Positions 18,376 to 48,408 of a stretch of 64,000 bases of DNA are shown here, in pieces (position 1 is the first letter of the stretch; each line of letters starts with the position of its first letter). The stretch is from Methanovulcanius yangii (GTDB lineage Archaea; Halobacteriota; Methanomicrobia; Methanomicrobiales; Methanomicrobiaceae), in contig NZ_LTBL01000001.1 of NCBI RefSeq assembly GCF_018687785.1, forward strand, positions 735,780 through 799,779, in the 5' to 3' direction. Under the pieces are notes generated by a model. That model was not told the DNA's origin, made no database searches, and worked only from the letters and a program-made list of their open reading frames with translations. The position numbers and the translations under genes were made by a program.

Positions 18376-19080
18376 TATTCACCACCTATGTTTATGGTCC
18401 GGGGATGCCGGGGAGGGCGGGTGTTTTCCGTCCTTCATCCCGGCACGGCCGGTAGATACTCGGTTGGATTTTGGTTGAATCCGTGTGGTTCGTGTGTTCG
18501 CGTCGTTCGTTTGTTGGATGTTCGTGCAGTTCATGTGAGTGTGTCCGTGTGTGTTCGGGGAACACCGCCGGGACCGGATGAGCCCGGAATCCCGTGTAAT
18601 TCGATGAATCGACTGATCTTCACTGATATGCTGATTCGCGGATCCGACTGGCCCGGCCACATTAGCGGGTCGGGCGAATCGTGGAATCGACTGAAACGTG
18701 CATGAACGTCGTCGGATTCGGTTGGTAAAGTCCTGAAAATAGTCATCACTGACTTCTTCTGTAATCCCAGAGCCGCATGAGTGCGGCCATGTCGTATGGA
18801 CACGTCGGACTTACCGAGCCAGCATCACATCTGATGTGTGTGCTGGAATAATGTCGATGGGATGGGTATTAAGGGTTGTCCCGGAGGACACCAGACAGCC
18901 GGAGAAATGAGCATGAATCAGTCACGGATATCTGATTGATAACGAAGATTTATGTGGATTTAATGCATATGAAATCCTGCACGATATGCACCATGTGCAC
19001 ACAACCATGTCTGTATCATCATGCGTTTCCACCAACTTCAATTTCATTTCAGTCAATCAATGAATCAATCAAAGTTCCCT
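18376..19080. other. 700-bp gene-free region with hairpins upstream of the uS15 operon
   Basis: No plausible protein frame. The stretch 18480-18560 is unusually G/T-rich (repeats of TGTTCGTG type), and several palindromes are present, notably at 18819-18846 and a smaller one at 18875-18893 (TGTCC/GGACA). I looked for RNase P (no GAGGAAAGTCC-like core), SRP RNA and box C/D guide signatures and found none convincing. It could hold promoters and leader for the ribosomal operon, an unrecognised structured RNA, or both. Confidence 0.4.
18819..18846. other. Strong hairpin in the gene-free region
   Basis: CCAGCA-T-CACATC-T-GATGTG-TG-TGCTGG: two perfect 6-bp stems separated by a small internal loop (T against TG). 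No T-run follows on the plus strand, so it is not a typical terminator. Confidence 0.55.
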
Positions 19081-33192: not shown

Positions 33193-33486
33193 TTCACTTC
33201 CGCCCCCCACATCCCAAACCCCTATTCATACCCACCCCAACCCTTCTCTCATGCGACCCGACAGGGCCGGGGCATAACCGGCAGGTCCCGCACGCGAGCT
33301 TCAGTTACAGTCAGACACCATCCTGAACAAGAAAAAAACGATCAGGAATTCTTTTCGAGAGACACGTCGGGCGGACCTGCCGAACGACAGCGGACAAATC
33401 AGCCAGGGGGCCACCGGAGATGAGAGGCCGGTGCCCCCTGTGTCCGTGCCGGTGCCCCGCACTCCAGGCCCTCCGCGATCGCGTAC
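33193..33486. repeat. R2 repeat, copy A (about 294 bp, structured)
   Basis: More than 85% identical to 43067-43366 by eye, from TTCACTTCCGCCCCCCACATC to GCGATCGCGTAC. Contains a C-rich left third, a wide inverted repeat CGGCAGGTCC (33279-33288)/GGACCTGCCG (33373-33382), and a second hairpin GGGGGCCACCGG (33406-33417)/CCGGTGCCCCC (33428-33438). No convincing protein frame and no transposase. The sequence just to its right (33445 onward) recurs at 40898-41190. Confidence 0.85.
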
Positions 33487-33543
33487 TCAGGACGTTTTTT
33501 CTCATTACGTCCATTCTTATTGAATCTCTCGCTTCCGGACTGC

Positions 33544-34134
33544 CTATGGAAATAACGATTCCAATGACCATCCTTGACTGAAGATCCATCCGCGTAATAG
33601 TATCATTAGAACGATACTTGTTGCAAGAGACACAAATGCGGCCCGGTCTTTTGATTTTTCATGAAATATCCGTATACCCCAATACGTCATCAAACCAAAG
33701 CAGATGAGTAGTAACAGACTTGCGAAAAGGTTCTGAACAATTACAATCACCCAGAAAAACAGGACGACGGGCGACAAAGCATAGACCGCAGATTTGATTG
33801 TTTTTTCAAATCCCTGTTCTACGTCGACAAAAAGCAGAAAAAAATGCTCAATAAGACTGATTCCCAGGAGTGAAATTACCCCGCTTATCAAACCCTGTAC
33901 CAGACCGATGAATGTGCCCAGCACAATTAGCCCAACAGGATACAATCCACTAATTCCTGATTCGTTTCCCATATCCGCACCCTGAAGAAAGGATATCAGC
34001 GTAAAACAGATTGATACAGCGATCACTATCGCAAAAAAGAATGTGAGAGCCGCCCGCAGTGGTTTTTCATTAAGCTCCTGAAAAATCCTCAGGGGATGGG
34101 AAAAACCAGTTTTTAACTGTCCACCAATCGTCAT
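33544..34134 (-). CDS. Yip1-family integral membrane protein
   Basis: 196 residues with five hydrophobic helices. The opening GFSHPLRIFQELNEKP is the typical Yip1-domain lead-in (P-x-x-x-F-x-x-L), followed by ALTFFFAIVIAVSICFTLISF and a long cluster of helices ending ATSIVLMILLRGWIF. Prokaryotic Yip1 proteins are of unknown function. A diverged copy of the last part of the gene lies at about 40985-41190. The R1 repeat begins 113 bp upstream. Confidence 0.75.
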   Translation of the reverse strand: MTIGGQLKTGFSHPLRIFQELNEKPLRAALTFFFAIVIAVSICFTLISFLQGADMGNESGISGLYPVGLIVLGTFIGLVQGLISGVISLLGISLIEHFFLLFVDVEQGFEKTIKSAVYALSPVVLFFWVIVIVQNLFASLLLLICFGLMTYWGIRIFHEKSKDRAAFVSLATSIVLMILLRGWIFSQGWSLESLFP

Positions 34135-34246
34135 TTTGCCATCCTAAATAATCACGGAAAGGCTCCACACCCAACTCCTCCTACACTCACCCAATCTGAG
34201 GTTTGCGAGTTTCCGTTGGTCACTCCGGTATTAGTACAACGCTTGA

Positions 34247-34363
34247 GGCTCAACCATTCCTGATCTGTTCGGTGAATCCCGTGCGACACCTTTTCGATGC
34301 TACGTGCATGACTTTTAACTCCGGTTTATTAACCGTTTATGGTCCAATCGTTTACGCATCATG
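34247..34363 (+). repeat. R1 repeat, copy 1 (diverged)
   Basis: Runs from GGCTCAACCATTCC to TTTACGCATCAT. Compared with the other long copies it has substitutions such as GAATCCCGTGCGAC for GAGCCCCGTGCAAC. It sits between the start of the Yip1 gene (113 bp away) and the end of the 145-residue protein gene. Confidence 0.85.
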
Positions 34364-34988
34364 CAACTGTTTCCGCAAAAGATGATCTGTGGAATGGCAG
34401 TATTCTCAATTCAGACCTGCATGGCCAAATAGTTACAAATTGAAATAATCGTTCTTAATATTTCACTAAAAAAGAAAAAAACGACTGAACAACCAATGAA
34501 ATCAGTCAGTCTCCCTTAAATTTTGAACAACGTGAAAAAACAACAGGTATGTCTTCAATATCGGCCAGTTTTCCATTTTTGTTCCAGACAGAATAAATCC
34601 TGTCCATGGTAGATTCATTCACTTCAGTATCTTTATTCCACCATATCTCAATGTGTCCTTTATAAGATAGCCCATAACCAACAAGAGGGCCGCCTTTCAG
34701 GCTCATATACTCTGAAAGTTCAGGATTTGACATGTTAATGACATCCAGCATAACTCCGGTATCATAGTCTTCCTGCGAAAAATTTCCATAGCTCTTGAGA
34801 AAAACGGCCGGATCACGGACATCACTGTCTTCACCTTCTAAACCGGGGGTATCTATCATACTGCAGATAACAGCATATGAGAATACGCCAAAAATGATGA
34901 TTGTCAGGACGATAAATCCTGTCGTTTTATATTGTTCATTCATATCTTAGCTCTTAACGTGTCAATGGGGTAATACCGAGATCATATA
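34323..34988. repeat. Segmental duplication, unit 1 (about 665 bp)
   Basis: Covers the right half of R1, a 140-bp spacer, the 145-residue protein gene and 45 bp beyond its start. It matches 37901-38565 closely throughout, including the untranslated spacer, so the duplication is recent. Confidence 0.85.
34506..34943 (-). CDS. Membrane-anchored 145-residue protein, paralogue 1
   Basis: Not a recognised family. An N-terminal transmembrane anchor (TGFIVLTIIIFGVFSYAVICS, residues 7-27) is followed by a polar extracellular domain: VFLKSYGNFSQEDYDTGVML, then NMSNPELSEYM, GYGLSYKGHIEIWW and a Cys near the end (SRCSKFKGD). It is nearly identical to the protein at 38083-38520, differing mainly in the first and middle loops. 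The promoter side faces an R1 fragment at 34992. Confidence 0.7.
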   Translation of the reverse strand: MNEQYKTTGFIVLTIIIFGVFSYAVICSMIDTPGLEGEDSDVRDPAVFLKSYGNFSQEDYDTGVMLDVINMSNPELSEYMSLKGGPLVGYGLSYKGHIEIWWNKDTEVNESTMDRIYSVWNKNGKLADIEDIPVVFSRCSKFKGD

Positions 34989-34991
34989 ATT

Positions 34992-35035
34992 ACTCCGGTA
35001 GATTAACCGTTTATGGCCCAATCGTTTACACATCC
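34992..35035 (+). repeat. R1 fragment (right end)
   Basis: ACTCCGGTAGATTAACCGTTTATGGCCCAATCGTTTACACATCC keeps only the last third of R1, 49 bp upstream of the 145-residue protein gene. Confidence 0.7.
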
Positions 35036-35099
35036 ATTAGGCACATCCAAAGGAGACTATTTCAATCACTGATCAATCCATTCAGGCAAGCAATATTCA

Positions 35100-35828
35100 T
35101 CACTGATACTCCACAACTTCAACCTTTTCAAGGTCAGAGATGGTGAAGACAATGCTACAGGGAGAATCATTCTGTGGGACAGCAACCGGTACTGATTTTT
35201 CCGATGAATGTGCCCCTGATACCGTTACGGATTCATATTCCGTATAATTACAGAGAACGATGTCATAATACGGCTCATCCGTATGAAATACCACTCTTTT
35301 CAGCGGAGTAAGTACACCTGTATCCAGAGCAAAAAGATTTCCATAACCGGCATCGTAGCTCAGGTCTCCCCACTGCGGATCAACTTCAATGACGAGTCCT
35401 GCCTCCTCGCCAATCAGTTCCCGGCAGGGTATCTGCTCGATTTCCGTAAGCAGACTGAGCGGATGGGTCCCCGCAGGTTGTATGCTGCTGATTTTTGATG
35501 AGTACCAGGTAATTGCCCCTGTCGGATTGACTTCAACATGATACCATCGATATATGCCCCCATCGTCTCCGTGGAACTCAAGAATCAGTGATTCGACCGA
35601 TCCGTCCTGCGCAGCTCTTATCCTCAATAGGCTGAGGATTGCAGTAGAATTGTCAACACCGGTCTGGTCTGTGACAATACTCCACAATTTCGATAAAGGA
35701 AGGCCATAGATGTCTGGCGGGAGAAAGAGGTCATCAGAATCATCGTCATGCATGAGCACAAACATGGACCCGGCACCAACAAGGAATGATACGCATATCA
35801 CCAGGATGCTGACCATTTTCTGTTTCAT
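35100..35828 (-). CDS. Membrane-anchored protein of unknown function, 242 residues
   Basis: An N-terminal anchor (MVSILVICVSFLVGAGSMFVL) is followed by an acidic linker (HDDDSDDLF) and a beta-rich domain (SLILEFHGDDGGIYRWYHVE; TGAITWYSSK) with a PepSY-like feel but no defining motif. The ATG overlaps the stop of the preceding small lipoprotein-like gene (ATGA). It is the third gene of the operon that starts at 36587 downstream of an R1 copy. I do not recognise a family. Confidence 0.65.
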   Translation of the reverse strand: MKQKMVSILVICVSFLVGAGSMFVLMHDDDSDDLFLPPDIYGLPLSKLWSIVTDQTGVDNSTAILSLLRIRAAQDGSVESLILEFHGDDGGIYRWYHVEVNPTGAITWYSSKISSIQPAGTHPLSLLTEIEQIPCRELIGEEAGLVIEVDPQWGDLSYDAGYGNLFALDTGVLTPLKRVVFHTDEPYYDIVLCNYTEYESVTVSGAHSSEKSVPVAVPQNDSPCSIVFTISDLEKVEVVEYQ

Positions 35829-36124
35829 GATTCCCCCTTACATCTAAAGTTGTCCGGGCCTGCAAATCCAACAGACTGAACAGGGACTCCACGAGCATCA
35901 ATAGAAAAACCATAGGCAACTATTTCAGCACCATCAGGCACTTCAGGATCAGTCAATGCAAATGGCATATGAGCTCTGGTCTTTTGGAATTTGTCTGTCA
36001 CGCACCCTCTCATATCTACCAGATCGTTCTGAGTGATTGGATTTGACAAATCCGTAATGCCATAGTCCGACAGTGTTTCATTGTTTTCCGCAGTATTTTT
36101 GGTACTGGTGCACCCTACAATCAT
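35825..36124 (-). CDS. Small protein with N-terminal MIVGC, lipoprotein-like but without a signal peptide
   Basis: 99 residues, unrecognised. It begins MIVGCTSTKNTAENNE: the GC and following Ser/Thr/Asn linker look like a lipobox, but there is no hydrophobic stretch before it, and the in-frame upstream codons reach a stop without one. Either the signal was lost or the start is wrong. It is sandwiched between two exported-protein genes in one operon (5 bp after the first, 4 bp overlap with the next). Confidence 0.5.
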   Translation of the reverse strand: MIVGCTSTKNTAENNETLSDYGITDLSNPITQNDLVDMRGCVTDKFQKTRAHMPFALTDPEVPDGAEIVAYGFSIDARGVPVQSVGFAGPDNFRCKGES

Positions 36125-36128
36125 TTCT

Positions 36129-36587
36129 TCATAATGTAGACGTATTCAATCCCGACGAAACCTCAGATACGGTTTTCACAACTTTATCCGTATTTACATC
36201 AACCAGAAAATCAACCGTCGTCATCTCGTAACGAATCCTGAGTGCCGGAAAACATCCAGGATAAGGGTCATCCTTCGGCCCCGGAGGGCAGGAGATAAAC
36301 ACCCCAATGATCTCTCCACCATTTTTAAGAATACTCGCTACACGTCCATCCTTTAGTGCGATATTATAAATGGTCTGTTCATCCGTGCCAATCTCATCCA
36401 AATATGATTTTGTGTCACTGGATACATACAACCCTTCTTCCGACACATGAGTATCGTTCAATGATACATTTTTGTTGGAAGGAATTTGTGCAGAAATGTT
36501 CGTTTGGGCATTAGTATCCTGCATATTAATACAGCATGCACCGAAAGATATCACAATTACGAAAATAAAAAGAATATATTTAGCCAT
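36129..36587 (-). CDS. Secreted lipoprotein of unknown function, 152 residues
   Basis: Start chosen at 36587 because AGGAAGGG stands just upstream. The signal (YILFIFVIVISFGACC) ends in a lipobox-like FGAC. The mature part is Asn/Ser-rich at first, then has the segment NIALKDGRVASILKNGGEIIG and a strand pair with FLVDVNTDKVVKTV. A similar segment, RIALRDEEVANAIRNH, occurs in the lipoprotein at 41371-41856, so the two may be distant relatives. First gene of a three-gene operon downstream of R1 copy 3. Confidence 0.6.
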   Translation of the reverse strand: MAKYILFIFVIVISFGACCINMQDTNAQTNISAQIPSNKNVSLNDTHVSEEGLYVSSDTKSYLDEIGTDEQTIYNIALKDGRVASILKNGGEIIGVFISCPPGPKDDPYPGCFPALRIRYEMTTVDFLVDVNTDKVVKTVSEVSSGLNTSTL

Positions 36588-36667
36588 TATCCCTTCCTTA
36601 CAGCAGAACAATCAATTTGCTGTTCGTAGTCGCACTTCCGAAGGATCAGATATAACATCAACTCCGC

Positions 36668-36813
36668 CAACACGGTTTTGCCTCCGGGCACGCGTGGGGT
36701 TCAACCATTCCTAATCTGTTCGGTGAGCCCCGTGCAACACCTTTTCGATGCTACGTGCATGACTTTTGATTTCGGTTTATTAACCGTTTATGGCCCAATC
36801 GTTTACGCATTAT
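36668..36813 (+). repeat. R1 repeat, copy 3 (long)
   Basis: Includes a left extension AACACGGTTTTGCCTCCGGG shared with copy 6, then the core GGGGTTCAACCATTCCTAAT to TTTACGCATTAT. It lies 81 bp upstream of the minus-strand lipoprotein gene and, on its other side, 62 bp before a decayed signal-peptide gene. Confidence 0.9.
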
Positions 36814-36875
36814 ACAACGTGTAAATGATAGGACCATTAAGGATATATTCAACTTCCAAATTTTCCATTGATACC

Positions 36876-37096
36876 ATGAAGACTATGAGAATTGCTGCCG
36901 TGACACTTGTTGCTGCGGCGCTGGTTATATCGGCAGCCGCTGCACAGGAGACAAACTGAATAATGGATCTATCGTAACCCCTGCAGGGGATACGGATGGA
37001 AAGGAGGATTTCTACCTCTCAGGACATATTGTACGATTACCCTGGGCGACACTGACCGGTATTCAACGTGCGTTTCAGCCCAGACAGATGACCTGA
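36876..37096 (+). pseudogene. Decayed small secreted-protein gene, copy 1
   Basis: ATG at 36876 opens a clear signal peptide (MKTMRIAAVTLVAAALVISA, then AAAQ) but the frame stops at 36957-36959 after 27 residues. In a second frame, offset by one base, coding-like sequence continues (NGSIVTPAGDTDGKEDFYLSG) to a TGA at 37094. TATA-like GGATATATTC lies about 30 bp upstream. A similar broken copy is at 39625, so the intact gene probably exists elsewhere. Confidence 0.65.
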
Positions 37097-37231
37097 TAAA
37101 AAATGGCAATACCTTATTCCATTTCCTTCATTCATCTGAACGGCGTGCAATTCCATGCACATCGTCTTTCACTTCACAGCATTTTTTTCAGGCCCAATAG
37201 ATCCAAAAATCAGAATGATTTGATTGCGGAA

Positions 37232-37819
37232 TCATTCTGATTTTGAGAAGATTGAAAAGACCGCCCAGAATACCGTAGATGCTATCGCCACCTCGATGTA
37301 CAAGCCGAGAGTCACACCGATAATGAAGATCAGATCATACCCCGCCTGCCCTACGATGCCGAGTGCTGTTGCAACTTCATCGAAGATATGCCCCAGCCCG
37401 GGAAGATATTCCACGAAAAGGGGTGGCGGAGCACCTTCCCATAATTCAGGATTTATGAGCAGTCCAGCCAGAAACGGGATCTGGAAGATCGACCCGGTTA
37501 AGATTGCAAGAGTTTTCATTCTTCCGGAAATTGCCGGGGTGAAGAATAGCCGGGTGAAGCAGATGTAGGGCATGACTACGGCCATGGCCGATATGGTCAC
37601 AAGTAAGGCAAGGATTGTGTATGTCAACAACGGATCCGGTGGCGGAGCATGGGAAAACTTCGTCACCCCAATTCTCATAAGTATTGCAAGAGATGTGAGG
37701 AGTACGTAAACGGGAATGCGGCTCTTTTCTCTGAGCAATGCGAACAGTTTATCGAGAATAAACGGATATGCCAGTATGAATATGAGTGCAGCAATCAATC
37801 CAAAAACTATATTTGACAT
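37232..37819 (-). CDS. Integral membrane protein, five transmembrane helices
   Basis: 195 residues, unrecognised. Helices are at about 3-22 (VFGLIAALIFILAYPFIL), 33-52, 65-90 (TYTILALLVTISAMAVVMPY), 103-123 and 165-190 (LIFIIGVTLGLYIEVAIAST). A proline-rich loop HAPPPDPL and another with GAPPPLFVEYLPG are on one side. The gene start is followed at 71 bp by an R1 fragment. No homology to named families that I can see. Confidence 0.6.
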   Translation of the reverse strand: MSNIVFGLIAALIFILAYPFILDKLFALLREKSRIPVYVLLTSLAILMRIGVTKFSHAPPPDPLLTYTILALLVTISAMAVVMPYICFTRLFFTPAISGRMKTLAILTGSIFQIPFLAGLLINPELWEGAPPPLFVEYLPGLGHIFDEVATALGIVGQAGYDLIFIIGVTLGLYIEVAIASTVFWAVFSIFSKSE

Positions 37820-37889
37820 TTTTTACCACCTCAGAAGAAATTTTGAATGGTTTCAGGGATGTGGTGTATCACATCGATTGGCACATCAG

Positions 37890-37940
37890 ATTTTTACTTC
37901 GGTTTATTAACCGTTTATGGCCCGATCGTTTACGCATCAT
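37890..37940 (+). repeat. R1 fragment (right half)
   Basis: TTTTTACTTCGGTTTATTAACC to TTTACGCATCAT, the right half of R1, truncated on the left; it joins directly onto the second unit of the segmental duplication. Confidence 0.8.
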
Positions 37941-38565
37941 TCAACTGTTTCCGCAAAAGATGATCTGTGGAATGGTAGTATTCTCAATTCAGACCTGCAT
38001 GGCCAAATAGTTGCAAATTGAAATAATCGTTCGTAAAATATCACTAAAAAAGAAAAAACGACTGAACAAACAATTAAATCAGTCAGTCTCCCTTAAATTT
38101 TGAACAATGTGAAAAAACAACAGGTATGTCTTCTATACCGGCTATTTTCCCATTTTTGTTCCAGACAGAATAAATCCGGTCCATGGTAGATTCATTTATT
38201 TCCGTATCTTCATCCCAGCAGATCTCAATATAACCTTGATACGATAAGCCATAGGCAACAAGAGGGCCACCTTGCAGGCCCATATACTCTGAAAGTTCAG
38301 GATTTGACATGTTAATGACGTCTAACATAACTCCGGTATCATAGTATTCCTGCGAAAAATTTCCATAACTCTTGAGAAAAACGGCCGGATCACGGACATC
38401 ACCGTCTTCACCTTCTAAACCGGAGGAGTCTGTCATACTGCAGATAACAGCATATGAAAATACGCCAAAAATGATGATTGTCAGGACGATTAATCCTGTC
38501 TTTTTAAATTGTTCATTCATATATTAGCTCTTAACGTGTCAATGGGGTAATACCGAGATCATATA
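37901..38565. repeat. Segmental duplication, unit 2 (about 665 bp)
   Basis: Matches 34323-34988, about 3.6 kb away in the same orientation. The match breaks just after GAGATCATATA, 45 bp beyond the start codon of the 145-residue protein gene. Recombination between the units would delete or duplicate 34.9-38.1 kb. Confidence 0.85.
38083..38520 (-). CDS. Membrane-anchored 145-residue protein, paralogue 2
   Basis: Near-identical sister of the protein at 34506-34943: the same N-terminal anchor (TGLIVLTIIIFGVFSYAVICS), the same extracellular domain, and changes concentrated in short loops (GLQGGPLVAYGLSYQGYIEI against SLKGGPLVGYGLSYKGHIEI). Both frames are intact, which suggests both are used. 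Unlike unit 1 there is no R1 fragment close upstream of this copy. Confidence 0.7.
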   Translation of the reverse strand: MNEQFKKTGLIVLTIIIFGVFSYAVICSMTDSSGLEGEDGDVRDPAVFLKSYGNFSQEYYDTGVMLDVINMSNPELSEYMGLQGGPLVAYGLSYQGYIEICWDEDTEINESTMDRIYSVWNKNGKIAGIEDIPVVFSHCSKFKGD

Positions 38566-38666
38566 TCTGGATCTTTCTTTTTGAAATAACTCCCACAACC
38601 AATTATTCCTAATGCAATACCGACAGTTATCGATGGGATGAAGAAAACAGGGGACTGATGATATCA

Positions 38667-39368
38667 TCATCCATCCAATGGAACCCAGTTCCCATCCAGA
38701 TATTGTGTGATGTGAGCATTTACCGGAATCTCTCCGCGGATTTCAGGCGGAATACGCTCAAGAATGGTTACTCGAAATATATCCCCCAGAATGGAATGGT
38801 TGAGTCCCTCTGATACCGTTAATTTAAGGTCAACGACAATATCCGTTGCATTTGCATTCAGTGGTACGAGATCTTCCGGGAGGAAGATTATCGATACATA
38901 TTCTGATCTGTTCTCTGTTCCGGAGTTCCACTCCTTTGACTCATCTGAGTTCTCACGAATGAGCGGATAAAGAGATTCATCACGGATATCGGTCACCGTT
39001 AGTTCCCCAGGATCAAATTTTTTAAAGAAATCTGCGTCAATATCGGTAAGATCCCCCCCAATTGACTGGAATGCCAGCATTTTGCCATGAGGGGTGACCA
39101 CAATTACCGATTTCCAGTTGCCAAACTGTTGGTTTTGAAGTTCTTCTTCTGAAAATACCAGACTTCCATCTCTCATAGGCATTGGCACAATAATATCTGT
39201 TATTAATCCGCCCTGATACTGGGATAGGCCCTCCGTTGAGATTTTATACTCATAAAATCCCGGGTTTGAGTTTATCCAGGAAGCTCCGAACAGGGGTAAC
39301 AGGACCATAAATGCCGCGATAATCACAATCACCACAAAAATGATTTTGGTTATATTTTTTGATTCCAT
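38667..39368 (-). CDS. Membrane-anchored protein of unknown function, 233 residues
   Basis: Residues 8-28 form an anchor (IIFVVIVIIAAFMVLLPLFG). The rest is a beta-rich extracellular domain: SEEELQNQQFGNWKSVIVVT, then SEYVSIIFLPEDLVPLNANA and a C-terminal ITQYLDGNWVPLDG. No family recognised. R1 copy 5 lies 77 bp upstream of its start. Confidence 0.6.
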   Translation of the reverse strand: MESKNITKIIFVVIVIIAAFMVLLPLFGASWINSNPGFYEYKISTEGLSQYQGGLITDIIVPMPMRDGSLVFSEEELQNQQFGNWKSVIVVTPHGKMLAFQSIGGDLTDIDADFFKKFDPGELTVTDIRDESLYPLIRENSDESKEWNSGTENRSEYVSIIFLPEDLVPLNANATDIVVDLKLTVSEGLNHSILGDIFRVTILERIPPEIRGEIPVNAHITQYLDGNWVPLDG

Positions 39369-39444
39369 CGTGTCTCCAATCCTATGTACGATTACTATCG
39401 GGTAACATAATCCACAAGACCAATGTTATACTTTGCACCAGTGG

Positions 39445-39560
39445 GGTTCAACCATTCCTAATCTGTTCGGTGAGCCCCGTGCAACACCTTTTCGATGCTA
39501 CGTGCATGACTTTTGACTTCGGTTTATTAGCCGTTTATGGTCCAATCGTTTACGCATCAT
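39445..39560 (+). repeat. R1 repeat, copy 5
   Basis: GGTTCAACCATTCCTAATCT to TTTACGCATCAT, almost identical to copy 3 over the core (one change, TTATTAGCCG for TTATTAACCG). It is followed on the plus strand by a degenerate signal-peptide gene, as in copy 3. Confidence 0.9.
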
Positions 39561-39624
39561 TCAACGTGTAAATGATTGGACCATAAAAAGGATATATCCC
39601 AATTCCAAATTCTCCTGCGATAGC

Positions 39625-39830
39625 ATGAAGACTTTCAGAATTGCAATCATGACACTAATCTTTGCGGTACTGGTTATATCGCAGCCGCTGCGCAGGGGAG
39701 ACAACCAGGACTGAACAAAATAATGTATATATCATAACCCCTGCAGGTGATACAAAATAGACCCGGAGGACTTGTTCCTCTCAGTACTGAGGATCATACC
39801 TTTACCTGGAATTAAGGTGAAACACAATCG
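39625..39830 (+). pseudogene. Decayed small secreted-protein gene, copy 2
   Basis: ATG at 39625 begins MKTFRIAIMTLIFAVLVISQ, clearly homologous to copy 1 at 36876, but the frame is lost within the signal-cleavage region (single-base deletion in what should read ISAAAAQ) and further stops follow. Downstream nucleotides still match copy 1 (ATAACCCCTGCAGG). TATA-like GGATATATCC lies about 30 bp upstream. Confidence 0.6.
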
Positions 39831-39850
39831 TAATCTTCCATGAAAATGAG

Positions 39851-40642
39851 ATGACAGTGATGGCAGGAAGACGGCCACTCACCCTCATATGCATCCTTAT
39901 CCTCTTCGTTGTATACCTCATTGGTCCGGCAACGGCAGAACCCGGAGGGTATGTCGTCCAGCCAGCCCCTGACACAGACCCCAATGAAGAGAGACACGAA
40001 TTTACCCCCATATCCTTTTGGGATCTATCTCCCCGTGCAATGCTAATTGGTATTGCACTCTCTATTTCTCCCGCACTGATATTCCCGGTTGAACTTTTGT
40101 TTGCAGTGAAATTATGGATTTATCTGGGATATCGAAAGGTTGCGAAATACAACGTGCTCAATAACACTGTTCGTTCAGAAATGTTTGAATGCATCTGCAA
40201 TAACCCGGGAATTACATTTTCTGCCCTTGCCCGTAAATGCAACATCGGGAAGGGAACGCAACAATATCACCTCAAATTGTTAATGAGGGAACATAAAATA
40301 GTCTCAGTTAAGAAAAAGGGTCAAACCGGATTTTTTGAGAATGATGACAAATATGAAGAAATTCATCGGACCATACTGATGCAGCTCAGGAGCGATACGG
40401 TGCGCCAGATCTATGAAATCCTGATCCGTCATCCCACCATATCACGCAAAGAGCTCGCCCGGTACCTTGGCATATCCGGATCTGCCGTTACTTGGCAAAT
40501 GGAACGGCTCTGTGCTGACGGCACCGTCTTCGCCACGAAATCCGGGAAATACACCTGTTACCTGCTCAATCCAGAAGTAAAAGAAATTCTTAGGGATTAC
40601 CTGCCTGACAATCCTGTTGCACATGTGACCGATCTGGCATAA
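39851..40642 (+). CDS. Membrane-tethered double winged-helix regulator
   Basis: 263 residues. A signal-anchor (LTLICILILFVVYLIGPATA) is followed by a 40-residue external loop, a second transmembrane segment (MLIGIALSISPALIFPVELLF, with LWIYLGY after it), then two winged-helix domains on the cytosolic side. wHTH 1 contains NNPGITFSALARKCNIGKGT and wHTH 2 contains RHPTISRKELARYLGISGSA. This layout, two membrane helices plus tandem ArsR/MarR-like DNA-binding domains, is used in methanogens for one-component surface sensing. It is the only intact plus-strand gene within the R1 array and is a natural candidate for controlling it. Confidence 0.8.
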   Translation: MTVMAGRRPLTLICILILFVVYLIGPATAEPGGYVVQPAPDTDPNEERHEFTPISFWDLSPRAMLIGIALSISPALIFPVELLFAVKLWIYLGYRKVAKYNVLNNTVRSEMFECICNNPGITFSALARKCNIGKGTQQYHLKLLMREHKIVSVKKKGQTGFFENDDKYEEIHRTILMQLRSDTVRQIYEILIRHPTISRKELARYLGISGSAVTWQMERLCADGTVFATKSGKYTCYLLNPEVKEILRDYLPDNPVAHVTDLA

Positions 40643-40712
40643 TAAGGGATCAGATCCGCTCGGATACGACAAAACCGAATCAACAGATTCCTGCAGGATC
40701 ATGATAAGCGCA

Positions 40713-40899
40713 CTACAACGTCCTTCCTCTCAATACCTCTTTTTGTTTTTGATCCTCGAGCTGATCAAGAGCATCTTTCGCAATGGATCTGGCCTCCACT
40801 CTTTTTTCAATTAAAGTATCTTTTCCAGCTGATCCTGCTTGGAAACCTAGTAGAGTGCCAACAAGTGTACCAGTTATCCCTGTGAAGAGACTTACTATT
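40713..40899 (-). pseudogene. 5'-truncated small membrane protein gene
   Basis: Read on the minus strand, about 61 codons are open up to TAG (40713-40715): SLFTGITGTLVGTLLGFQAG then an acidic/basic helix (EARSIAKDALDQLEDQKQK). There is no start codon; the frame runs into the R2 fragment at its 5' side, so its N-terminus was replaced or lost when that fragment arrived. Confidence 0.55.
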
Positions 40900-41190
40900 G
40901 TCCGCGCCCGTGCCCCGCACTCCAGGCCCTCGGCGATCGCGTACTCAGGACATTTTTACTCACTACGTCCATTTTTATTGAATCTCTCGCTTCCGGACTG
41001 CCTATAGAAATAATGATTCCAATGACCTACAATAACAATCCATGACTGAATAACCATCCGCGGAATAGTATCATTAGAACAATAATTGTTGCAAGAGACA
41101 CAAATGCGGCCCGGTCTTTTGATTTTTCATGAAATATCCGTATGCCCCAATACGTCATCAAACCAAAGCACATGATTAATAACAGACTGC
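40898..41190. repeat. R2 copy C fragment joined to a Yip1 gene remnant
   Basis: Matches 33441-33721: first the last 45 bp of R2 (TGCCCCGCACTCCAGGCCCT), then the R2-Yip1 spacer, then the 3' end of the Yip1 gene (to AAACCAAAGCACATGATTAA). The Yip1 part (about 40985-41190, minus strand) lacks the first two thirds of the gene and is a remnant. So a segment spanning the R2/Yip1 junction was copied. Confidence 0.8.
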
Positions 41191-41370
41191 CTGAATGTGC
41201 ACAAGGGAAAACAATTGTGTCCGTTTTACGGAAGAGAGAGAAGAAAGCACTGTAGCATCAGAGATTGTACATCGAAGGATATCTACAGATACCGGCTCAC
41301 ATTTACCGAAATCACCAACAGACAATGTATGAACTGGTCATGTCAATAAATGAAAGGATTTTAGATCAAC

Positions 41371-41856
41371 TCACAGATTATGATATGTACATATCGAGCG
41401 ATTCGTAAGATTCATCCTCATATCGACTGGGACACTGGGCGGATATCGGGGTGGGTATTCCCATGAGCGCTGAACAATTTGTTTCGAATCATTGATGAAG
41501 ACGGAATACATGCCGTCATATGTGCCATATGGACGAGAAGTGCCTTTAAATAACCAAAATCGCACTTTAATGAGTTCTTCAGGCTCATTTAATCCCGATT
41601 GCAGATGTGAAACGTAAATCTCAGTCTCGAACGAGTGGTTACGAATTGCATTGGCGACTTCTTCATCACGGAGGGCGATCCGGACCAGTTCAATCTCTGA
41701 CTCGTTTCCTCGGCAGTCAAGATCATTCATCCAGTAATTACCATCATCATGTCCGGTACCGGTTTCCTGCACGCATCCACACGACAAAACCAAAGAAATG
41801 AGGAGGATGGTCAGGAGACCGTCCAAAACCCTGATGACAGCCTTTACAAAATCCAT
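41371..41856 (-). CDS. Secreted lipoprotein of unknown function, 161 residues
   Basis: Start placed at 41856 (MDFVKAVIRVLDGLLTILLI), overlapping the upstream gene by 13 bp; a longer start at 41886 is possible. The signal ends in a lipobox LSCGC. The mature domain contains LVRIALRDEEVANAIRNHSF, resembling the lipoprotein at 36129, and a strand-rich half ending PVDMRMNLTNRSICTYHNL. Cotranscribed with the larger secreted gene upstream. Confidence 0.6.
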   Translation of the reverse strand: MDFVKAVIRVLDGLLTILLISLVLSCGCVQETGTGHDDGNYWMNDLDCRGNESEIELVRIALRDEEVANAIRNHSFETEIYVSHLQSGLNEPEELIKVRFWLFKGTSRPYGTYDGMYSVFINDSKQIVQRSWEYPPRYPPSVPVDMRMNLTNRSICTYHNL

Positions 41857-42806
41857 GAATCGATCCGATATGCCTGCGACCACCAAGGGATGTACATATC
41901 AACCATCACCGGATAGGAATTCTCACTTTTATGGGTAACCTCTGGCAGGTTATTGTTCCACCATACGGATGTCTGATCGCCAAACAGGTACGAGTCCCAG
42001 AAATATGCATTAGAGACAGGTGTGTAGCTGCTACTGTCGGCCGCGAAATACTCATGATTCTCATCAGGATTTCCTTTTGCAAAAGGTACGTGACCGGTGC
42101 GAATTACCTGACCATTCCATGAAAGCAGATATGGATATCCTTCGGGATATAGAACATTACTGACATAAACTTCAAAGTTGAAATCCTGATTTCCATTGGT
42201 AAAATTGGCATGTGGCTCGAATTGTTCATCTTCCGGCAGTGTGCTATCAACAGTGTATACAACAAACTCATTCGGATCTCCGCCAAATATCTCAGAAAAC
42301 TTTGCTACTCCGACTTCTATCCAGCAAGGATCCCCTCCGACAGGTTGCCCCAAGTGGCTTGTCAGATATTGATGATTTGTGCCTGATGAAGAGACCTCCA
42401 TATCTCCGGGGTGCACGATGCCGTTGATACCACGGTAATTATACTCATCTATCCACATGCGCCCATCTTTTTGAGCCCAGCTGCGAACTTCTGTTTCTTC
42501 CTCTTCCGATTCTTTAGCTCGCTTGTAAATACTTTTCACTCTCTCCGTATCATCTTCTGACCAGCCTGCTAGATAGGTCACACGGGGGGAATTGTGAATT
42601 GCATCTGCAATTGCTTTTTCTGTGTCCTGATTTGAACGACACTCCTGAATCAGTGACGGGGATCTCTCGAGTTGCGTAGCTTCATCGACAACATCTCCTG
42701 AGATCCAAGTAGGCTCATCCGCACTCACCGCCGACACCATCACCACACTCACCAGCAGCAACGCCAAGAGCACAGAAAGTGCCCGCATTTCATTTTTTTG
42801 TTTCAT
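41844..42806 (-). CDS. Secreted protein of unknown function, 320 residues
   Basis: Start at 42806, with GGAGGAAAATGT directly upstream; the frame extends further but without a ribosome site. The signal peptide is MRALSVLLALLLVSVVMVSA. The mature part has an N-terminal helical segment (NQDTEKAIADAIHNSPRVTY, again with an I-A-x-A-I-x-x pattern) and a Trp/Tyr-rich beta-sandwich-like remainder: GDPCWIEVGVAKFSEIFGG, FNFEVYVSNVLYPEGYPYLL and YFWDSYLFGDQTSVWW. It resembles no named family to me. R1 copy 6 begins 65 bp upstream. Confidence 0.65.
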   Translation of the reverse strand: MKQKNEMRALSVLLALLLVSVVMVSAVSADEPTWISGDVVDEATQLERSPSLIQECRSNQDTEKAIADAIHNSPRVTYLAGWSEDDTERVKSIYKRAKESEEEETEVRSWAQKDGRMWIDEYNYRGINGIVHPGDMEVSSSGTNHQYLTSHLGQPVGGDPCWIEVGVAKFSEIFGGDPNEFVVYTVDSTLPEDEQFEPHANFTNGNQDFNFEVYVSNVLYPEGYPYLLSWNGQVIRTGHVPFAKGNPDENHEYFAADSSSYTPVSNAYFWDSYLFGDQTSVWWNNNLPEVTHKSENSYPVMVDMYIPWWSQAYRIDSWIL

Positions 42807-42870
42807 ACATTTTCCTCCGTTTTTCATATCCCCAGTGGTAAAACAGCAAAACTTCCAAGTAATGGTAAGG

Positions 42871-43017
42871 CCAACACAGTTTTGCCTCCGGGCACGCATG
42901 GGGGTTCAACCATTCCTAATCTGTTCGGTGAGCCCCGTGCAACACCTTTTTGATACTACGTGCATGACTTTGACGTAGGTTTATTAACCGTTTATGGCCC
43001 AATCGTTTACGCATCAT
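42871..43017 (+). repeat. R1 repeat, copy 6 (long)
   Basis: Has the left extension AACACAGTTTTGCCTCCGGG as in copy 3, then GGGGTTCAACCATTCCTAAT through TTTACGCATCAT. Ends 50 bp before R2 copy B. Confidence 0.9.
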
Positions 43018-43066: not shown

Positions 43067-43366
43067 TTCACTTCCGCCCCCCACATCCCAAACCCCTATT
43101 CATACCCACCCCAACCCTTCTCTCATGCGACCCGGCAGGGCCGGGGCATAATCGGCAGGTCCCGCACGCGAGAGCCAGTTACAGTCAGACACCATCCTGA
43201 ACGAGAAAAAAGCGATCAGGAATTCTTTTCGAGAGACGCGTCGGGCGGGACCTGCCGAACGACAGCGGACGACATCAGCCATGGGGCCACCGGAGATGAG
43301 AGGCCGGTGCCCTCCAATGTCCGTTCCCGTGCCCCGCACTCAAGGCCCTCCTCCGCGATCGCGTAC
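43067..43366. repeat. R2 repeat, copy B (about 300 bp)
   Basis: Near-identical to copy A apart from a few substitutions and a 3-bp insertion. The wide inverted repeat is better here: CGGCAGGTCCC/GGGACCTGCCG, 11 bp perfect. The compensating extra G in the right arm supports a conserved stem. Confidence 0.88.
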
Positions 43367-46327: not shown

Positions 46328-46592
46328 TAAGAATTCATCTCCAGCAAAAGGTGGTCCATAATTAGGGAGTCCCGGCCGACGACTGCCTCCGGGAACCGGT
46401 TGACAGGCATGGTCCTGTTGTGCCAGAATCCCTGTTCATCCGGTTCGCACAGGACGGAATGAATGTAGATCATGTCCCGGATGAAATGAACCAACCACAC
46501 AGTTCCATGATGAAACCGGGGACGTGCCGGAAGTCCCATAGTCAGGATACATTTACCGACGCCTCGGCCCGGCGGCCTCAAAAGCCCTGCAA

Positions 46593-46600
46593 GTATATAT
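46593..46600 (+). promoter_or_regulatory. TATA box for the HEAT-repeat gene
   Basis: GTATATAT centred 27 bp before the ATG at 46624, a leaderless arrangement that rules out the longer frame from 46420. The 296 bp between 46328 and 46623 otherwise hold only an uncertain minus-strand frame (about 50 residues, ending LIMDHLLLEMNS) whose stop overlaps the ATG at 46327. Confidence 0.6.
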
Positions 46601-46623
46601 CAAATGAACCCGGTTTTTTATGT

Positions 46624-48408
46624 ATGGCACCTCTGGGCTTTCTCGGCCGCCCCAATATCGCAAAAATGGCGAGGTGCCATGATCTCGAAGGCCTTATCCG
46701 GGCGCTGGAATACCCGAACGACCCCGCCATACGCAGCGCCGCCGCCGCGGCGCTGGGGGAGACCGGCGATTCCCGTGCCGTCCACCCGTTGATTCGCGCC
46801 CTGAACGACGACGAGGAGGAGGTACGCTTCGCCGCCTTCAAGGCGATCCGGATCGTCGGCCGACCGGCGGTTGAACCCCTCATGGCCGAGCTTCGGGACG
46901 ACGACTCCCCCCATCACGACAACGTTGCAAAGGAACTGGTAATGATCGGGGAGGGGGCTGTCGAACCCCTGGTGGCGGCACTCGCAGACGAGAACGAACG
47001 CGTCGTAACCGCGGCGGCCGTCGCCCTCGCAGAGATCCGGGGACCGGCGATTCCTCCCCTCATCACCGAACTGCAGAACGGGGAGAGCTCCGTCCGCGAC
47101 ATCGCCGCCGCCGTGCTGGCATACATCGGCACCCCGGCGGTGCGGCGGCTGGTCATCGCCCTCATGGACAATGATCCGGGCACCCGCCGCCGCATCGCGG
47201 GCGTCCTGAAAGAGATCGGCCCCGCCGCCCTGCCGGACCTGACCACATTCCTGCTCGCAGGCGACCTTCGGCAGCGGCACGGGGCCGCCGAAGCGCTCGG
47301 GTATATCGCGGACCCTGCAACCGTAGAGCCGCTGATCCACGCCCTCGACGACATGAACCCCGATGTCCGGCACGCCGCCGCCGAAGCGCTCGTCGCGATC
47401 GGGGAGCCCGCCGTCCTCCCCCTCACGAACGCCATGAAGACCGCGGCCCCCGGCATCCGGGACAGTGCCGCAGACGTCCTCGAACAGATCGGCGCACCCG
47501 CCGTCCCTCCACTCATCGCCGCGATGGAAGAGGAGGGAAGCAGCATCCGCAGCCGTGCCGCCGATATACTCGGATGCTGCGGCGACCCCGCTGCCGCCCT
47601 GCCCCTCACAAATGTCCTCGGCGACCCCGACGAGAACGTCCGCCAGGCCGCGGCCGAGGCCCTGGGAAAGATCGGGGACCTCCGTGCCGTGGGCCCCCTC
47701 ACTACCCTCCTCGATGACCCGGACGGAAACGTCCGCATGCGGACCATTGAAGCGCTCATCCGGATCGGTGACGACCGGGCGACAGCCCCCCTCCTTGCGG
47801 CACTCCAGAACGAGACGACGGAAATACGCAGCAACAGCAGGTATGTCCTCGGGACGATCAGCCGCGTCCCCAAGGGCGACCCCCTGATGAGCGCACTTCT
47901 GGAGGAACTCAGGGACGACGAACCCGTCTCCGCCACGGCCTTCTTCTCCCCGGCGATCACCGGGACCCGCACCACCTTCCAGCGGCGGTACACCGATGCA
48001 CAGGAACGTGTATACGAACTCTTCCGGGCGCCGAATCCTGAGAAGGCACGGGCCTTCCTGAAGACGAAGAGCATCCCCCATCCCAACTATTACCTCATCG
48101 TCGAGACACCGGACGGCACCTGGGGCCTCGACAGGGACGGCCTCTTCCTCGAACACCTCGAGCCGTGGCAGGTCTGCTGCACCCCCAATCCCGACTGCGA
48201 CGGAACGATCGTCTCATGGAACCCCGTCCGGCTGGAAATGGCGGCCCGCGGCCTCGCCGACAACTTTGTCTGCGACGTCCGGTGCGGACGGTGCGGACGG
48301 GTCTGGACCGACGGCATCCGCTACCAGAATATCACGGCAGTTCGCTGCCCCGCCTGCACCGCGGTCAACCGGGTCGACAGCACAAGCGCCGTCTGCTACC
48401 ATCTCTGA
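46624..48408 (+). CDS. HEAT-repeat protein with C-terminal zinc-ribbon domain
   Basis: 594 residues. Residues 10-430 comprise about thirteen HEAT/PBS-type repeats of 31-32 residues (V-x-P-L-[IL]-x-A-L-x-D-x-[DN]-x-x-V-R-x-x-A-A-x-A-L-G-x-I-G), close to the lyase-type armadillo. A second domain follows (TFQRRYTDAQERVYELF; ARAFLKTKSIPHPNYYLIVE), and a C-terminal zinc ribbon VRCGRCGRVW...VRCPACTAV provides four Cys. The repeats are probably a protein-protein scaffold; the C-terminal region with HPNYYLI and LEHLEPWQVCC has no known function. Single-gene unit; the next gene is convergent. Confidence 0.8.
   Translation: MAPLGFLGRPNIAKMARCHDLEGLIRALEYPNDPAIRSAAAAALGETGDSRAVHPLIRALNDDEEEVRFAAFKAIRIVGRPAVEPLMAELRDDDSPHHDNVAKELVMIGEGAVEPLVAALADENERVVTAAAVALAEIRGPAIPPLITELQNGESSVRDIAAAVLAYIGTPAVRRLVIALMDNDPGTRRRIAGVLKEIGPAALPDLTTFLLAGDLRQRHGAAEALGYIADPATVEPLIHALDDMNPDVRHAAAEALVAIGEPAVLPLTNAMKTAAPGIRDSAADVLEQIGAPAVPPLIAAMEEEGSSIRSRAADILGCCGDPAAALPLTNVLGDPDENVRQAAAEALGKIGDLRAVGPLTTLLDDPDGNVRMRTIEALIRIGDDRATAPLLAALQNETTEIRSNSRYVLGTISRVPKGDPLMSALLEELRDDEPVSATAFFSPAITGTRTTFQRRYTDAQERVYELFRAPNPEKARAFLKTKSIPHPNYYLIVETPDGTWGLDRDGLFLEHLEPWQVCCTPNPDCDGTIVSWNPVRLEMAARGLADNFVCDVRCGRCGRVWTDGIRYQNITAVRCPACTAVNRVDSTSAVCYHL

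Follow-up and report, generated by a model that had tools for sequence, protein, structure and literature searches.

The window analysed here is a 64,000-nucleotide (nt) stretch of the Methanovulcanius yangii genome (contig NZ_LTBL01000001.1, positions 735,780 to 799,779), in which an oriented repeat, R1, lies upstream of minus-strand genes for exported or membrane proteins. Once the copies had been aligned on the gene strand, R1 proved to be just the leading portion of a longer conserved stretch, in which an upstream motif, a TATA-like box, hairpins P1 and P2, element a, a linker, element b, the Shine-Dalgarno sequence (SD), and the start codon follow one another; P1 and P2 are the first two hairpins of an mRNA leader of ~170 nt. 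The 18-nt core of R1 was matched four times in the window (34247, 36698, 39445, and 42903, all on the plus strand), against a chance expectation of 0.04. The copies, with profile bounds as their limits, are listed below.

34239..34366, RNA on the minus strand: R1 copy 1, upstream of the Yip1-domain gene 33544-34134; the leader ends after P2
34992..35034, minus strand: promoter-half copy (upstream motif), upstream of the gene for a 145-amino-acid (aa) protein, 34506-34943
36690..36817, RNA on the minus strand: R1 copy 2, upstream of the lipoprotein operon 36587-35100; the leader ends just after element a
37881..37943, minus strand: promoter-half copy, upstream of the gene for a 195-aa membrane protein, 37232-37819
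39441..39564, RNA on the minus strand: R1 copy 3, upstream of the gene for a 233-aa anchored protein, 38667-39368; the leader ends after P2
42895..43021, RNA on the minus strand: R1 copy 4, comprising the upstream motif, the TATA region, and hairpins P1 and P2

The core matches and profile bounds bore out the earlier note, which had described four long copies and two fragments in one orientation. The gap between a copy and the downstream minus-strand gene is about 49-105 nt, close to the 49-113 bp given there, and all six targets, claimed to be membrane-bound or exported, are membrane, lipoprotein, or signal-peptide proteins. Both short copies consist of R1's promoter half and lack the hairpins. 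The 145-aa gene 34506-34943 has a paralogue at 38083-38520 (~89% DNA identity), and the promoter half of R1 is kept upstream of only one of the two and lost at the other. The 3′ half of the leader is gone from three of the four long copies, where different genes are now joined. In this genome the putative switch half survives, weakened, at one copy, and the others would function at most as a promoter with hairpins. A genome search found no R1 copy outside the 9-kb cluster in the remainder of the 2.29-Mb genome, and the R1-linked regulon of this organism is limited to the cluster. The region is also a duplication hot spot: the stretches 33193-33720, 40892-41188, and 43067-43351 are 92-97% alike and include a broken second copy of the 3′ end of the Yip1 gene.

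The full-length leader and its pairing

The one complete leader precedes a secreted-protein gene and comprises the following features, all on the minus strand. Alignment A2, cited below, was not fitted to the covariance model, whereas alignment A3 was.

42801..42972, minus strand: full-length leader, the sole one in the window; 169.6 bits and an E value of 6e-39 with the covariance model, whose training set also contains this copy
42939..42959, minus strand: hairpin P1 (GTAGTATC / GGTGTTGC); 93% of its pairs are formed in A2; wobble-rich on this strand
42900..42936, minus strand: hairpin P2 (GGGGCTCACC ... GGTTGAACCCC); nine of its ten pairs show compensatory changes in A3
42883..42895, minus strand: element a (GTGCCCGGAGGCA; also written GCCCGGAGGCA), candidate anti-anti-SD
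42830..42843, minus strand: element b (TTTTACCACTGGGG), candidate anti-SD, degenerate at this copy
42814..42818, minus strand: SD (GGAGG) of the secreted-protein gene
41844..42806, minus strand: gene for the 320-aa secreted protein, signal peptide MKQKNEMRALSVLLALLLVSVVMVSAVSA

Family-wide, P1 reads GTAGCATC/GATGTTGC, P2 reads GGGGYTCACC/GGTTGARCCCC, element a reads GTGCCCGGAGGCA, element b reads TTTTTGCCTCC (also written TTTTGCCTCC), and the SD reads CGGAGG. The linker between a and b is conserved as well, with a consensus of about UUGGCUUU..AUACUURAA. A second leader subtype has another linker (...UAUAUAAGCGUAGCUUUGCC) with the same a, b, and SD; it is represented by L185, L187, L189, L190, L192, and L193 in genome G406 and by L216 and L217 in genome G305.

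Conservation, strand, pairing, the matching of b to its own SD, and gene context were all derived from comparison. In P1, 116 G-U cells were counted against 15 A-C cells, and this excess indicates an RNA read on the gene strand. The RNAalifold consensus on the MAFFT alignment (A1) contained almost no structure because P2 is misaligned between genera, a problem that the model-based alignment resolved. In A3, which is biased toward the model's own structure because it was fitted to that model, 86.6% of the cells pair, compared to at most 53% in slid registers, and 26 of the 31 pairs carry double-sided changes; shuffles gave 14 such pairs and slid registers no more than 14. The unfitted A2 gave a similar pairing frequency (86.1% versus at most 51.8% when slid), with a count of double-sided pairs no higher than in shuffles. 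The leader thereby displays the conserved, covarying 5′ structure expected of a riboswitch.

The matching of element b to the SD of its own gene is the strongest result on structure. On alignment A4, the b:SD helix showed double-sided changes at seven of nine pairs and a score of 0.203, compared to at most 0.112 in slid registers. Among 107 leaders, b paired better with its own SD than with permuted SDs (0 of 5000 permutations as good). The same held within single genomes: none of 10,000 permutations was as good for the 18 sister leaders of G426 and only 8 for G406; G534 gave a weaker signal (388), and in G079 (1778) significance was not reached. Matching within a genome means that shared ancestry of the genomes is no explanation, although the copies inside one genome are still related to each other.

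Element b has complementarity to element a as well as to the SD region, which gives the leader two mutually exclusive folds. Both the a:b and the b:SD helices are predicted, with stabilities above those of shuffled controls. Of the minimum-energy folds calculated at 37 °C for 58 leaders, most form a:b and leave the SD free, and about a dozen pair b with the SD. Matching of a to b in cis is present in Methanosarcinaceae. An expression platform of the riboswitch type, with two exclusive folds affecting the SD, was thus found at the level of predicted helices and of b:SD cis-matching.

Distribution, exported targets, and the upstream motif

R1 was found in 9 of 28 genomes of the same family, in co-oriented clusters such as the one of about nine copies in 24 kb of G010. 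The search of the host genome and its relatives that the earlier note had called for did not reveal copies at random positions or orientations, and the clustered, co-oriented copies next to exported-protein genes in relatives support its proposal of a control element for surface proteins rather than debris. With a covariance model built from 26 leaders of the window's family, the leader was detected in 72 of 232 genomes from the order; these belong to 19 of 40 genera and represent each of its six families. A second model, built from 40 leaders, matched 86 of 393 genomes of the phylum, confined to families f1-f6, f8 (which we take to be Methanosarcinaceae), f30, and f36; training leaders match by construction, so the counts in their genomes are not independent. 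A class-level search gained no genome outside the order. Ten genomes searched deeply carry 5-22 copies each. Within the order, a pattern scan of named genomes located the leader in Methanoculleus and in Methanogenium, M. cariaci among them; beyond it, Candidatus Methanoperedens and metagenome-assembled genomes of Methanosarcinales gave matches. Of the 19 matches, the two in a cyanobacterium and a Streptomyces seem to be fortuitous. A typical leader (L090, 3939-4091) together with a secreted-protein gene resembling those of Methanosarcinales also occurs on a contig assigned to candidate division WOR-3, which is probably misbinned. Phage records gave no match to R1, and none of the viral contigs had the leader.

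The downstream proteins were sampled from 60 leaders in eight genomes, with 59 open reading frames (ORFs) long enough to be scored and the window genes outside the cluster as background. By a simple hydropathy rule for a basic-hydrophobic start, used in place of a trained predictor, 58 of the 59 proteins have a signal-peptide-like N-terminus, compared to 3 of 26 in the background. These N-termini are stereotyped (MRALSVLLALLLVSVVMVPAVSA; in Methanosarcinaceae ...LLAAMLLVSMAFVPAVSAQ), and the mature portions fall into many unrelated clusters. The enzymes among them include S8 subtilase, M12 reprolysin-like, M10 matrixin, and transglutaminase-like proteins; a C39-like match falls under its curated cut-off.

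Eight good sites of the upstream motif, GTAAAYGATTGGNCCATAA, are present in the host genome, all inside the cluster, and two of them are oriented to the plus strand. These two divergent copies and the neighbouring candidate regulator gene are located as follows.

36821..36839, plus strand: divergent copy of the upstream motif, upstream of a broken signal-peptide ORF starting at 36876
39568..39586, plus strand: second divergent upstream-motif copy, lying toward the regulator gene
39851..40642, plus strand: membrane-anchored protein with two winged-helix domains (Pfam HTH_24 and HTH_HVO_0163_N) and membrane segments, candidate regulator of the R1 promoters

The divergent copies, which face plus-strand genes, account for the inverted repeat at 36.8 kb and 39.5 kb. 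Related plus-strand ORF starts at 36876-37100 and 39625-39760 (MKTMRIAAVTLVAAALVIS..., MKTFRIAIMTLIFAVLVIS...) are soon interrupted and resemble broken exported-protein genes that have an upstream motif of their own. Where a leader had both a detected motif and a detected TATA box, the spacing between them was in most cases fixed, at 17 nt for GATTGG.CCATAA and 27 nt for ACGTGTA; among 125 leaders there were 15 and 25 such cases, respectively, compared to 0 and 1 in control stretches. A shared DNA site at a fixed distance from TATA, as expected of a transcription-factor regulon, is therefore present. Homologs of the double-winged-helix protein form a sizeable family, and 13 of 39 lie within 1.5 kb of a leader, compared to 0.56 expected, mostly divergently and ~600-860 nt away. 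The protein is the best candidate for the factor acting at the upstream motif, to which we infer that it binds. Elsewhere in the window, the plus-strand ORF 46420-48408 encodes 662 aa with repeated ALGEIGD-like units that are HEAT-repeat-like.

A candidate translational switch and its alternatives

We consider it probable (roughly 70%) that R1 supplies the promoter and the 5′ half of a leader-RNA module that is conserved upstream of exported-protein genes, and that this module likely operates as a translational SD switch. The module would consist of an upstream DNA motif at a set distance from TATA, the transcription start, P1, P2, a, the linker, b, the SD, and a signal-peptide gene. A factor at the upstream motif would probably govern transcription, a role for which the adjoining membrane-anchored double-winged-helix protein is the best candidate. 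As for translation, we infer that the two folds interconvert: the a:b fold would leave the SD open and translation on, the b:SD fold would hide the SD and turn translation off, and the trigger may be an agent that binds the a:b-enclosed domain or stabilises it, so setting the balance and, with it, the output of secreted enzymes.

Several observations weigh against this reading. Element b is degenerate at the window's full-length leader, whose predicted a:b and b:SD energies are -12.5 and -6.3 kcal/mol, whereas a typical copy has -18.7 and -10.5 kcal/mol; with its b weakened in this way, control there may be relaxed or lost. The a:b helix contains an A-C mismatch in many leaders. Within single genomes, the a:b matching is poorer than that of b:SD, and in G079 the former is absent and the latter not significant. 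Outside Methanosarcinaceae no a:b cis-matching was found, because a and b hardly vary there. The linker differs by subtype (e.g., in G406), so a single common ligand pocket is not established. Finally, detections of the upstream motif were rare in Methanosarcinaceae, although it is common in Methanoculleus and the window's family.

RNA thermometers of the ROSE and FourU types mask the SD, and in our leader, too, a complementary segment would sequester it. A thermometer or an unregulated masking fold, in which b hides the SD and is opened by temperature or ribosome loading alone, without a ligand, agrees with the b:SD interaction, the best supported one, and with the range of the hosts from cold to warm habitats; long 5′ untranslated regions with predicted masked ribosome-binding sites in Methanolobus psychrophilus (PMC5378194) count in its favour as well. 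Such a device, however, requires b:SD alone, yet element a is near-invariant and captures b in most folds. A conserved competing element and a conserved enclosed linker would be superfluous for a simple melting hairpin, and P2 would also be left unexplained. We regard this explanation as unlikely.

The control regions of SecM and MifM type, which are leader-peptide attenuators for secretion genes, resemble our leader in lying before secretion-related genes, and about half of the leaders could contain a short ORF. Element a would then be the SD of a short upstream ORF (e.g., VLALPLLESFAFLPPG, MLALRILKVWL), the translation of which would melt or leave b. Many leaders do have GGAGG or a similar run in a, followed by a start codon, and a LAL-x-[ILV]-L-[KE]-like motif recurs in the short peptide that about half of all leaders could encode between a and b (L036-L134), though it is not conserved throughout. 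The idea of a conserved leader peptide looked attractive but failed on the ORF count: the upstream ORF reads through b in 64 of 112 leaders, compared to 43% expected in shuffled linkers, and stops break it in whole genera that retain the leader. Attenuation is further weakened because 43% of the leaders lack such an ORF, 11 of them any start codon, and a is often GAAGG or degraded while the leader element persists. Unlike the known attenuators, the short ORF is not conserved, and we hold this mechanism to be quite unlikely.

It is very unlikely that R1 is purely a DNA promoter element whose transcribed part is passive or serves mRNA stability or membrane targeting. The promoter half does stand alone upstream of some genes (34992 and 37881), the conserved upstream motif and TATA keep a constant distance, and the association with signal peptides would suit a role in mRNA localisation, but neither the coevolution of b and SD inside one genome nor the wobble-rich P1 is predicted by it. 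That R1 is repeat debris, a miniature mobile element, or intergenic sequence carried over when genes were duplicated is hardly credible: the cluster is rich in duplications and three window copies are cut at differing points and rejoined to other genes, but the same orientation and position before exported-protein genes recur across two archaeal classes with compensatory change, the host genome has no further copies, the scattered positions and both orientations of an interspersed repeat were not observed, and the comparative data contradict such an origin.

The leader-RNA switch that we favour would work like the platform of a translational riboswitch, having a structured 5′ leader, a segment that pairs exclusively with an upstream partner or the SD, and reuse before many genes. 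We do not claim membership in that class, from which it differs in its archaeal hosts, in its position outside Rfam 15, and in its targets, which are secreted proteins rather than members of a single metabolic pathway. Neither R1 nor full leaders from two classes matched any Rfam 15 covariance model at gathering or relaxed thresholds. The S15-Methanomicrobia ribosomal-protein leader (RF03137), which Rfam did match at 18761-18844 on the minus strand, is likewise an archaeal cis-regulatory leader of the same order but differs in sequence and gene. The leader was not described in the open papers searched, with prior mention possible in a 2017 survey of 224 RNA candidates or in subscription journals. 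It is a structured cis-regulatory leader that is unusual in its range among archaea, in its number of copies, and in its association with secretion.

We tentatively envisage, as a possibility somewhat short of even odds, an archaeal riboswitch-like RNA class of Methanomicrobiales, Methanosarcinaceae, and Methanoperedens that would control a secretome of proteases and other exports, moving together with its promoter site and a stereotyped signal peptide and working with the membrane-anchored winged-helix regulator. Few archaeal riboswitches have been predicted and fewer still validated, according to a 2024 paper on tools for Methanosarcina mazei (PMC11549558). With up to 22 copies per genome, nearly all of its targets secreted, and its occurrence in groups with genetic tools (Methanosarcina), the leader makes sense of a number of unannotated genes as members of a single regulated group and offers a directly testable handle on the control of export in methanogens and anaerobic methane oxidisers.

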